64,000 nucleotides of DNA from Rhodopseudomonas sp. BAL398 (GTDB taxonomy: Bacteria; Pseudomonadota; Alphaproteobacteria; Rhizobiales; Xanthobacteraceae), in assembly GCF_033001325.1 (NCBI RefSeq), contig NZ_CP133111.1, positions 4,170,501 to 4,234,500 on the forward strand, written 5' to 3'. The notes under the pieces are model-generated. The model ran no database searches. It was not told the DNA's origin and worked only from the letters and a program-made list of their open reading frames with translations. Shown piece after piece: positions 56,664 through 61,210 of the stretch (its first letter is position 1; each line of letters opens with the position of its first letter). The translations under genes were made by a program, and so were the position numbers.

Positions 56664-59006
56664 ATGTCCGAGCTTGACCAGGGGCTGTTGAAGGCGGCGC
56701 TGAACGCGCTCGATGCAGGCATCGCGATCCTCGATCATTCCGGTCGCGTGATCGGCTGGAACGACTGGCTGGTATCGGCCAGCGGCATCGCTTCCGCCGA
56801 TGCCGCCGGCAAGTCGCTGTCGGAGATCTTTGGCACGGCGCTGTCGAACCGGTTGATGACGGCGATCACCGATGCGCTGACGCTGAATTCATCCGGCTTC
56901 CTCACCCATTCGCTCAATCCCAAGCTGTTTCCGTTCCGCACCCGGGCGGGACTGCCGATGCTGCAGAACGTCACCATCCGCCCGCTGGGGACGTCGGCGG
57001 AATCGCGCTGCCTGATCCAGGTCGTCGACGTGACCGGCGCCGCGCATCGCGAGAAGGTGCTGCGCGAGCGCCAGAATGCCCGCTACGACGCCGTGGTCGA
57101 AAGCGCGCCCGACGCGATCCTGACGCTCGACGCCGCGGGGGTGGTGCGCTTCGCCAATCCGTCCGCGGCGCGCGAAATCGGTTACCCGCCGCAGGACCTG
57201 GTCGGACAGCCGCTCGGCATTCTGTTTGACGATGCAACGGAATGGGACGCGCTGCTGGGCCGCGTGCTGAACGGCGAGAGCTCGGGGCGCCCGATCGAGC
57301 TGCTGGCGCGACGCAAGGATGGCACCGATACGCGGCTGGAGATTTCGGCTTCCCGATGGGTCAGCGCCGGGCGTTTTCTCATCACCGCGATCCTGCGCGA
57401 CGTCAGCGAGCGCCATGCCGCCCAACAGGCGCTTCAGGCGCTCAATCTCACCCTGGAAAAGCGCGTCGCCGAGCGCACCCAGGAGCGCGATCAGGTCTGG
57501 CAGGTCAGCCAGGACATGCTCGGCGTCGCCGACGTCAACGGCATCTGGATCAGCGTCAACCCGGCATGGCAGCATACGCTGGGGTGGATGCCCGAAGATA
57601 TCCGGGGCAAGACGCTGGCCTGGCTGCAGGAGCCGGCCGAGGGCATCAGCAGCCTGGAGCAGTTTGTCCAGCTCGCCGCGACCGAGCAGACTTTTCATTT
57701 CGAGAACAGCCTTCGCACCCGTGACGGTGAGTACCGCGTGCTGTCGTGGACGGCGGTTCATGCCGAGGGGCTGATCTATTGCGTGGCGCGCGACATCACC
57801 GAGCAACGGCGCCAGCAGGAGGCGCTGCTCAAGGCCGAGGACGCGCTGCGGCAGTCGCAGAAGATGGAGGCGGTCGGACAGCTCACCGGCGGCCTCGCCC
57901 ATGACTTCAACAATCTACTGACGGGCATTTCCGGAAGCCTGGAACTGTTGCAGTTGCGGATCTCGCAGGGCCGCCACAAGGACGTCGAGCGCTATATTTC
58001 GACCGCCCAGGGCGCGGCCAACCGCGCCGCGGCGCTGACGCATCGGCTGCTGGCGTTTTCGCGCCGGCAGACGCTCGATCCGAAGGCGACCGACATCAAC
58101 CGTCTGATCGCCGGCATGCGCGACCTGATCGACAACACGGTCAGCCCGGCGATCGAGACGCGGATCGTCGAGTCTGCCTCGCTTTGGACAACGCTGGTCG
58201 ATCCCAACCAACTCGAAAATGCCCTGCTCAACCTGTGCATCAACGCGCGCGACGCCATGCCGGACGGCGGCAGCCTGACGATCGAGACGCAGAATCATGC
58301 GTTCGATTCCGTCTCGGCTCAGATCCTCGAGATTCCGGCGGGCGACTATGTCGGTCTTTCAGTCCTGGATTCGGGCACGGGAATGAATGAAGAGGTGATG
58401 CAGCGCGCCTTCGATCCTTTCTATACGACCAAGCCGCTGGGGCAGGGGACCGGGCTCGGGCTGTCGATGATTTACGGCTTTGCCAAGCAATCGGGCGGCC
58501 AGGTGCGAATTACCTCGAAGGTCGGCGTCGGCACCAAGGTCGAGATTTTCCTGCCGCGTCACGATCAGCTTGAAGCCGCGCTCGATTCGGCCGCCGATAT
58601 CTCGCATTCGCCGCGGGCGCGGGCCGGCGAAACCGTCCTGATCGTCGATGACGAGCCGTCGGTTCGCATGCTGATCACCGAGGTGCTGGCCGAGCTCGGC
58701 TACACCTCGATCGAGGCGTCCGAAGGCTCGAGCGCACTTCGCGTGTTGCAGTCGGACGTCCGGATCGATCTGCTTGTCACCGATGTCGGCCTGCCCGGCG
58801 GCATGAACGGACGCCAGCTGGCCGATTACGGACGCATCGCCCGACCGGAGCTGAAAGTCCTGTTCATCACCGGCTATGCCGAGAAGTCCGTGCTGGGCGG
58901 CGAACAGATCGAGGACGGCATGAGCATTTTGACCAAGCCGTTCGCTATGGAAGGCCTCGCCACGCGGATCAAGGAGTTGATCGCGCTCAACGCGACGACT
59001 CACTGA
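56664..59006 (+). CDS. PAS-containing hybrid histidine kinase with receiver
   Basis: A 780-residue soluble hybrid kinase. Three PAS segments are seen at about 1-125 (AGIAILDHSGRVIGWND), 138-255 (AILTLDAAGVVRFANPSAAREIGY) and 278-385 (GVADVNGIWISVNPAWQHTLGW), with a coiled coil at 255-275. The HisKA phosphorylation site is His413 in GGLAHDFNNLLTG; the ATPase has LENALLNLCINARDAM, DSGTGM and GTGLGLSM; the receiver from 655 has VLIVDDEPSV and Asp707. No membrane helix. It starts 9 bases after cheC and closes the operon. It may feed or drain phosphate from the CheY-like proteins. Confidence 0.93.
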   Translation: MSELDQGLLKAALNALDAGIAILDHSGRVIGWNDWLVSASGIASADAAGKSLSEIFGTALSNRLMTAITDALTLNSSGFLTHSLNPKLFPFRTRAGLPMLQNVTIRPLGTSAESRCLIQVVDVTGAAHREKVLRERQNARYDAVVESAPDAILTLDAAGVVRFANPSAAREIGYPPQDLVGQPLGILFDDATEWDALLGRVLNGESSGRPIELLARRKDGTDTRLEISASRWVSAGRFLITAILRDVSERHAAQQALQALNLTLEKRVAERTQERDQVWQVSQDMLGVADVNGIWISVNPAWQHTLGWMPEDIRGKTLAWLQEPAEGISSLEQFVQLAATEQTFHFENSLRTRDGEYRVLSWTAVHAEGLIYCVARDITEQRRQQEALLKAEDALRQSQKMEAVGQLTGGLAHDFNNLLTGISGSLELLQLRISQGRHKDVERYISTAQGAANRAAALTHRLLAFSRRQTLDPKATDINRLIAGMRDLIDNTVSPAIETRIVESASLWTTLVDPNQLENALLNLCINARDAMPDGGSLTIETQNHAFDSVSAQILEIPAGDYVGLSVLDSGTGMNEEVMQRAFDPFYTTKPLGQGTGLGLSMIYGFAKQSGGQVRITSKVGVGTKVEIFLPRHDQLEAALDSAADISHSPRARAGETVLIVDDEPSVRMLITEVLAELGYTSIEASEGSSALRVLQSDVRIDLLVTDVGLPGGMNGRQLADYGRIARPELKVLFITGYAEKSVLGGEQIEDGMSILTKPFAMEGLATRIKELIALNATTH

Positions 59007-59605: not shown

Positions 59606-59695
59606 TGGCGGAGAGGGAGGGATTCGAACCCCCGATAGGCTTGCACCTATGCCGCATTTCGAGTGCGGTGCATTCGACCACTCTGCCACCTCTCC
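59606..59695 (-). tRNA. tRNA-Ser (anticodon CGA)
   Basis: On the minus strand a 90-base Ser-type tRNA is seen: acceptor GGAGAGG with CCTCTCC, anticodon stem CCGCA/TGCGG with loop CTCGAAA (anticodon CGA, reading UCG), a long variable arm (GCATAGGTGCAAGCCTATC), T-loop GTTCGAATCCC and an encoded CCA end. Confidence 0.96.
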
Positions 59696-59905: not shown

Positions 59906-61087
59906 TCAATCCTTGTCCTTCTTGTCCTTTTCGCCGGCTTTGGCTTTGTCCTTGCCGTTTTCCTTGCGGTTTTCCTTCTCTTTCTCTTTGCCCTTGTCCT
60001 CTTTGTCCTTGTCCTTTTTGGGCGTGTCGGCCGGCTTGCGGTTGGTGAAGCGGGCGTTGCCGAGGCCGGTGCCGATGGTCAGCACCCCCCAACGCTTGAA
60101 TTCCTGCATATAGGGGACCTCGCTGAGGCCCTGGGCGACGCCGTCATTGTGCATTAGCACCGCGGTATCGTGCTGGCCGATCGTTGGAATCCCCTCGATC
60201 AGCGCGCCAGGCAGGTGAAAACGGCTGCTTTCCCAATTGCCCGGCAGGTTTTGCGCGCCTTTTTCGATCGAGCCGTCGGCATTGATCACGCCGGGGCAGG
60301 AGATGCCGATGAAGGGCGCCAGCTTGAAGCCCTCGTCTTCGGCGGCGGCGATCAGCTCCTTCAGCATCTTGATCAGGCGCTTGACCGCACCCTCCCGGGT
60401 CGGCTCGTCGTCGGCATGGCGCCACAGGCTGGATTTCCACACCGAGGCCTTGGACAGGTCCGGCGCTTTCTTCCAGCCGGTCTCGACCACGCCGCAGCGA
60501 ATGTTGGAGCCGCCGATATCCACCGCCAGGATGCTGTCATGGCCCTCGAAGATCCAGGACGGCGCCAGATGCAGGCAGCCGATCAGCCCGGCCTCATCGG
60601 GATGAAACCGGATCGGCACCAGTCCGACCTTCAGCCCCTCGGCTTTCAGGATGAGGTCGGCGCGCGCGATCGCCAGTTCGCCGATCCGGCCCTGGCGAAA
60701 GCCGCCGCCGACCACGATCGATTCGGTGTCGGCCCAGGCCTTGGTCTTGAGAAAGCGCCGCGTCACATAGGCCAGTTCCTGGGCGAAATCCTCGATCGCG
60801 CCGTGCACCAGCGCCGCGGCCGCGACATCGTCGCCGTTCAGCACCTCGCTGAGCTGGGTCTTGCCGATCTCGTCAGTCGACATCTTGCCGAACGGATCGT
60901 CGCCATTCTTGCGCAGCGGCTTGCGCCAGCCCTCGAGAATGCGCTGAAACGCCCCCTTGCTGGCGCGATCGCCAAGAAAGCCGTCCTCGTCCTTCAATTC
61001 GATATTATAGCTGTCGACATCCACCGAAGGCAGCCGCGTGGCGCCGTGGCTGGCGATTCCGGTTTTGGTCGATGTGTCCTCGGTCAT
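59906..61087 (-). CDS. ROK-family sugar kinase-like protein, apparently circularly permuted, with Lys-rich tail
   Basis: A 393-residue cytoplasmic protein with ROK motifs in swapped order. Residues about 80-175 look like the C-terminal part of a ROK kinase: NGDDVAAAALVHGAIEDF, VVGGGFRQG (126-132), DEAGLIGCLHLA (164-174). Residues about 185-350 look like the N-terminal part: LAVDIGGSNIRCGVVE (phosphate loop at 190-195), GISCPGVINADGSI, NLPGNW, HNDGVAQG with the likely catalytic Asp315, and TIGTGLGNARF. In standard ROK proteins DIGGT comes first and GGG last. The CxCGxxGC zinc motif is missing. A tail of about 40 residues is made mostly of Lys, Asp and Glu. Start at MTEDTSTKT. Substrate is unknown; family would suggest a hexose. 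Confidence 0.85.
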   Translation of the reverse strand: MTEDTSTKTGIASHGATRLPSVDVDSYNIELKDEDGFLGDRASKGAFQRILEGWRKPLRKNGDDPFGKMSTDEIGKTQLSEVLNGDDVAAAALVHGAIEDFAQELAYVTRRFLKTKAWADTESIVVGGGFRQGRIGELAIARADLILKAEGLKVGLVPIRFHPDEAGLIGCLHLAPSWIFEGHDSILAVDIGGSNIRCGVVETGWKKAPDLSKASVWKSSLWRHADDEPTREGAVKRLIKMLKELIAAAEDEGFKLAPFIGISCPGVINADGSIEKGAQNLPGNWESSRFHLPGALIEGIPTIGQHDTAVLMHNDGVAQGLSEVPYMQEFKRWGVLTIGTGLGNARFTNRKPADTPKKDKDKEDKGKEKEKENRKENGKDKAKAGEKDKKDKD

Positions 61088-61210
61088 TTGGCTTGCCCCG
61101 TTGAATTTGCGCGGGACAACATTCGGGGAACCGGTTTGTTCAAAGCCGCCGCGCGGCCCGGCCAATTGGCAAAACCCCGCCAAATCCCGGCGTTTCCGGC
61201 GCCGCCTGGC

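Follow-up and report, generated by a model that had tools for sequence, protein, structure and literature searches.

Analysis of a 64,000-nucleotide stretch of the Rhodopseudomonas sp. BAL398 genome (contig NZ_CP133111.1, positions 4,170,501 to 4,234,500; hereafter, the window) revealed a gene for a ROK-type protein (PF00480) that almost certainly adopts a circularly permuted fold, with the order of its two halves established by sequence profiles and supported by a predicted structure. The gene is an intact open reading frame (ORF) on the minus strand, running from an ATG at 61087 to a stop codon at 59906-59908 and encoding 393 amino acids. We consider it likely that the product is a permuted, zinc-less ROK-type hexokinase of the sigma-EcfG general stress response. 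We are aware of no description of the permuted family, whose genes often have EcfG promoters and, in several lineages, neighbour trehalose-phosphatase, sugar ABC transporter, or stress genes.

Order of the ROK halves

The original prediction had placed the glycine-rich and phosphate motifs of this protein in an unusual succession, and the positions are correct: VVGGGFRQG at about 125-133, DIGGSN at 190-195, and GTGLGNA at 339-345. The DxGxT motif, usually found at the N-terminus of ROK proteins, is not located there in this protein but follows the equivalent of the classical C-terminal half. Even simple searches hint at swapped halves, because the Pfam ROK profile aligns residues 187-351 with its positions 2-143 of 294, and the NCBIfam NanK model weakly matches residues 107-175 with its positions 220-286 of 288. 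In two other members, the first half (N-half) was matched by the BglK hidden Markov model (HMM): residues 76-175 of L097 with positions 194-282 of 291 (E 2e-6) and the N-half of L092 with positions 191-283 (E 2.7e-5). A sequence search of the PDB returned NanK alone (E 0.19). Artificial rotation of single sequences barely shifted the Pfam scores (18.8 versus 18.4 bits, with one continuous match, from the rotated L097 only); single-sequence HMMs are thus a weak test, and we relied on a profile–profile scan.

Profiles of 35 permuted and 25 classical ROK proteins were compared using hhalign. In the natural order, 2 separate matches were obtained, pairing residues 185-344 with classical positions 4-148 (probability 97) and residues 72-177 with positions 207-307 (probability 93). 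Rotation of the permuted profile at residue 184 yielded a single continuous match of 294 columns and raised the score from 80.6 to 111. When the rotation point was scanned, the score peaked at 112.0 at residue 184, was 108.8 at residue 175, and stayed at about 80 without useful rotation, the continuous match of 293-294 columns appearing only with rotation at residues 175-184. The N-half profile scored 55.9 (probability 94), compared with at most 23.5 for 30 column-shuffled N-halves and 17.5 for the reversed N-half; this match of residues 72-177 to the ROK C-terminal region speaks against the refuting possibility named in the original prediction, that residues 80-175 are unrelated to that lobe.

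The arrangement is common to the whole comparison set of 122 members (92 from Nitrobacteraceae and 30 others), all of which align over residues ~10-351, with a lowest pairwise identity of 39%, and carry the equivalent of the C-terminal half first and that of the N-terminal half second. Because 122 orthologues keep the same order, it is not a product of chance. One member, L118, failed the automatic order check through an additional HND match only, its aligned HND column being normal. No further complete C-terminal half follows in the orthologues: in members from outside Nitrobacteraceae, the chain stops a median of 4 residues past the 8 that follow GTGLG. The Lys/Glu/Asp-rich C-terminus described in the original prediction is present, as 42 residues after R351, but lies outside the conserved domain. 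Tails of at least 20 amino acids occur in 61 of the 92 Nitrobacteraceae members versus 1 of the 30 others, and within Nitrobacteraceae as a whole the tail varies from 5 to 63 residues in length (38% Lys, 19% Asp, and 10% Glu). The Lys-rich tail is an accessory, variable feature of this lineage. A polyphosphate-related or KEKE role for it was considered and dropped for want of evidence.

An AlphaFold2 model of the full-length protein was built with 48 close orthologues (best of five models: predicted local distance difference test [pLDDT] 83.8, predicted template modeling score [pTM] 0.83). VIA-align ranked ROK structures first for this model and superposed residues 182-350 on the ROK domain, over its first ~150 residues (2yhw, Z 12.2, 2.2 Å over 132 positions). 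Foldseek, applied to the same model, listed many ASKHA proteins, with PPX and hexokinases first and poor TM-scores, a result to be expected of an aligner that follows chain order when the chain is permuted. For a model of the N-half alone, Foldseek found no significant match, whereas the five best VIA-align matches were ROK-type sugar kinases, over their second halves, in agreement with the sequence profiles. Each half of the chain thus matched the corresponding ROK lobe, the N-half match resting on a low-confidence model. Profiles and model together support the permuted kinase fold put forward in the original prediction; the word "kinase" itself derives from the motifs considered below.

Active site and lost zinc motif

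The published ROK signatures comprise DxGxT, a catalytic Asp, ExGH, and the zinc motif CxCGxxGCx(E/D) (PMC5458393). In the permuted family, both phosphate motifs (PHOSPHATE1 and PHOSPHATE2), the catalytic Asp, and the glycine-rich adenosine motif show essentially no variation, and G127-129, D164, D190, G193, N195, N280, W285, H313-N314-D315, T340, G343, and H14 are kept in all 122 members (Table 1). The nucleotide-binding motif takes the form DIGG[S/T]N, conforming to DxGxT, and HND at 313-315 supplies the expected Asp throughout. As previously noted, CxCGxxGC is absent from the window protein. In the rotated profile alignment, His14 falls near ExGH, which may survive as this residue, and the acidic residue at position 40 (D/E) may stand for the terminal acid of CxCGxxGCx(E/D). 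By analogy of motifs, D315 would serve as the catalytic base, with H14 and D40 contacting the sugar. The protein thus looks catalytically intact, and these conserved motifs make an active kinase likely.

By the same alignment, the new ends of the chain fall beside the lost zinc loop, after the strand that follows GTGxG and before the His segment. In the proposed scenario, this is where the chain was opened, beside the ordinary zinc-motif site and ahead of the His segment that contacts the sugar, and the former C- and N-termini became linked through residues at about 175-184. In three dimensions, the fold, the ATP site (D190-N195, G339-G343, and GGG 127-129), and the base D315 would be rebuilt, so that the enzyme would be expected to phosphorylate a hydroxyl of a hexose with the gamma-phosphate of ATP. 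Its most likely role would be to supply hexose-6-phosphate, probably glucose-6-phosphate, in the sigma-EcfG stress response, for instance for trehalose synthesis. Bradyrhizobium OtsA converts UDP-glucose and glucose-6-phosphate to trehalose-6-phosphate, and otsAB is under sigma-EcfG control (PMC8092242); this makes glucose the leading candidate, although we give it only an even chance of being the main substrate.

Table 1. Features of the permuted ROK gene and its upstream region (window coordinates).
Feature	Coordinates	Strand	Basis
Whole gene, circularly permuted ROK-type protein, 393 aa	59906..61087	(-)	ORF and orthologues
Residues 1-183, counterpart of the classical ROK C-terminal half (from after the GTGxG strand to the end)	60539..61087	(-)	hhalign; N-half model
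Residues 184-351, counterpart of the classical ROK N-terminal half (DIGGT to GTGxG)	60035..60538	(-)	Pfam, hhalign, VIA-align
Residues 352-393, tail rich in Lys/Glu/Asp, variable and not part of the fold	59909..60034	(-)	Orthologue comparison
GGG 127-129, glycine-rich (ADENOSINE-like) motif, invariant	60701..60709	(-)	122-member alignment
DEAGLIG 164-170, counterpart of the C-terminal D-x-AG-LGA segment of classical ROK proteins	60578..60598	(-)	Profile comparison and alignment
DIGGSN 190-195, PHOSPHATE1	60503..60520	(-)	Orthologue alignment
QNLPGNWE 279-286, loop with a putative role in sugar binding (invariant N280 and W285)	60230..60253	(-)	Alignment; putative role
HND 313-315, invariant, Asp315 putative catalytic base	60143..60151	(-)	Alignment; role by comparison with ROK kinases (PMC5458393)
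GTGLGNA 339-345, PHOSPHATE2	60053..60073	(-)	Orthologue alignment
His14, invariant (122/122), tentative counterpart of the ROK ExGH His	61046..61048	(-)	Rotated profile alignment
Asp40 (D/E in 122/122), tentative counterpart of the Glu that follows the lost zinc motif and binds sugar	60968..60970	(-)	Rotated profile alignment
TGAAC-N16-TGTT, degenerate match to sigma-EcfG promoter GGAAC-N16-17-CGTT	61118..61142	(-)	Upstream sequence, window copy

Promoters, neighbours, and distribution

The published sigma-EcfG promoter motif, GGAAC-N16-17-CGTT (PMC3892343), occurs in its strict form upstream of 11 of the 30 members outside Nitrobacteraceae, compared with 0.0 expected from shuffles. The S. meliloti gene carries GGAAC-N16-CGTT, as do the Rhizobium gene and a Bradyrhizobium plasmid copy. 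A looser form precedes 73 of the 92 Nitrobacteraceae members (1.7 expected), which are closely related and not independent, and AAC-N16-xGTT is conserved in register in 84 of these 92 loci. From these upstream sequences, stress regulation of most alphaproteobacterial members seems quite likely. The Nitrobacteraceae form differs from the GGAAC -35 element of other families, and its spacer contains a conserved GGTTCC, as in TGAAACCAAAGGGTTCCCCGCCCGTTGTC (window 61118-61142; e.g., L014, L024, and L040), which may represent an extra operator or a variant of the promoter peculiar to this lineage.

The trehalose-phosphatase gene otsB adjoins the permuted gene in R. laguerreae and in locus L168, and sugar ABC transporter, DUF892, and SDR genes, together with one PfkB kinase gene, are among the neighbours in unrelated lineages. 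These promoter and neighbour links are read directly from the sequences; kinase activity, the substrate, and the tie to trehalose are our proposed interpretation. In Nitrobacteraceae, rplU lies within 4 kb of the gene in 76 of 80 loci. No PF02685 glucokinase was found in the window genome, which contains one other PF00480 match over the cut-off (L130 1483-2367, plus strand). This second ROK gene has the classical order and the zinc motif CSCGRVGC and is located between oxidoreductase-like and aminotransferase-like genes, apparently in a surface-sugar cluster. Directly downstream of the permuted gene, the window contains a tRNA-Ser (cga) gene (59606-59695, minus strand). A gene at 56664-59006 encodes a 780-residue PAS-like hybrid histidine kinase with a receiver domain (identified by eye), which was not found near the orthologues. 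Two shared-ORF clusters, with ORFs of L169 and L172 that are present in all loci, were ignored as most likely antisense or out-of-frame readings of the permuted gene.

Genome contigs yielded 321 related stretches; the 80 best, mostly Nitrobacteraceae sequences, were retained. Full-length relatives sharing 47-80% identity were detected in further families of the same order and class and, beyond the class, elsewhere in the phylum. Across the phylum, the permuted gene was present in 22 of 398 sampled genomes, a count that leaves out seven classical ROK genes matching in the second half only. Members are plasmid-borne in Rhizobium, Sinorhizobium (including pSymB of strain 1021), Shinella, Methylobacterium, and Roseateles; a search of phage records yielded no match. 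Annotations of family members are limited to "ROK family protein" or "hypothetical." Some Bradyrhizobium genomes carry second permuted copies, and one copy resides on a conjugative Bradyrhizobium plasmid, next to DUF2235, ferritin-like, SDR, and PRC-barrel genes, a setting that suggests a mobile stress island (copies at L165 5001-6071; G217:C1:3796342-3797394; G200:C151:162559-163611). Other genomes contain gene fragments only (G599:C1:11001-11369, G599:C7:38761-38934, and G597:C36:101459-101653), perhaps decayed copies or contig breaks. Taking the sequence data together, we lean towards an old permutation, spanning several proteobacterial classes, in which an active natural ROK/ASKHA permutant serves many rhizobia and their relatives as the hexokinase of the stress regulon and possibly as their sole glucokinase.

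Alternative readings and known systems

Several observations weigh against a permuted, zinc-less hexokinase of the stress response. The window protein scores 18.8 bits with Pfam ROK, below the gathering cut-off of 22.9; divergent orthologues reach 32.9-42.9 bits, above it. Among the five full-length models, the first alone is confident (pLDDT 83.8, followed by 72-63). The N-half folded alone gave a low-confidence model (pLDDT 64), and its match to residues 134-294 of 3r8e (Z 6.9, 3.8 Å over 133 positions) lies within the range of chance matches and is unconvincing by itself. The zinc motif is lost in the permuted family, although such loss is not unique among ROK proteins (PMC5458393, PMC6406325), and no clear counterpart of the ExGH Glu is seen; for these 2 reasons, sugar binding may differ. 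Finally, the promoter of the window copy, while in register, is degenerate, and the neighbours in Nitrobacteraceae are rplU-rpmA rather than sugar genes.

The poor N-half model and the fact that Pfam alone sees only the second half of the window protein would also fit an ordinary ROK N-terminal half preceded by an unrelated domain. This reading is highly improbable and already contradicted by the N-half profile score, well above the shuffled maximum, the continuous rotated match, the BglK match of L097, and the structural match of the N-half to the second halves of ROK proteins. A permuted pseudo-kinase, acting as a non-catalytic sensor of sugar or ATP or as a regulator, would resemble the ROK repressors Mlc and Lmo0178, which are among the VIA-align matches of the model, and would be in keeping with the lost zinc motif and an ExGH Glu that is not evident. 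We regard it as improbable, given that the phosphate motifs and Asp315 are essentially invariant and that the two ROK halves fill the conserved chain, leaving no extra domain. A less remote, though still doubtful, alternative is a permuted kinase with another substrate or donor: another hexose, an amino sugar, an inositol-like compound, or polyphosphate in a polyphosphate-dependent glucokinase. Of the weak matches to the second half, the NCBIfam polyphosphate--glucose phosphotransferase model ranks among the better ones, polyphosphate glucokinases also lack the Cys motif (PMC6406325), and the neighbouring sugar ABC transporters suggest various sugars. However, the matches to the ROK_glcA, BglK, NanK, and polyphosphate glucokinase models are all weak and vary in their order, with no subfamily standing out, and the otsB neighbours favour glucose-6-phosphate.

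If the permuted hexokinase is real, a ROK-fold chain can be opened beside its zinc site, providing a naturally occurring test case for how the actin-like ATPase fold forms and assembles its active site. Some of the most intensively studied nitrogen-fixing bacteria have kept this family, yet standard family models see mostly half of the protein. It may also carry out the phosphorylation of glucose in the stress response, a step required for trehalose synthesis and, through it, for symbiosis. To our knowledge, few well-studied enzyme folds have natural circular permutants. Our search of the open literature, with most subscription journals outside its scope, found no publication on a permuted ROK protein, glucokinase, or other sugar kinase. 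The sections consulted of a kinase survey allow for circular permutation within fold groups generally and name none for the ASKHA group (PMC1079889).

Among known systems, the closest are the ROK sugar kinases of PF00480 (GlcA/GlkA, the NanK/GNE kinase domain, and BglK), which provide the best structural matches and share both halves, PHOSPHATE1 and PHOSPHATE2, the catalytic Asp, and the adenosine loop. Hexokinase, PPX/GppA, and MreB (ASKHA/ribonuclease H-like) have the ATPase core in common and are listed by Foldseek, but rank behind ROK structures in VIA-align. Unlike the PF00480 kinases, the permuted protein has swapped halves, no CxCGxxGC, termini beside the zinc-motif position, and an ExGH motif reduced to a conserved His. 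The zinc-less NanK of Fusobacterium nucleatum and Listeria and the polyphosphate glucokinases of methanotrophs likewise lack the Cys motif (PMC5458393, PMC6406325), yet, in contrast to the permuted family, keep the classical order of the halves.
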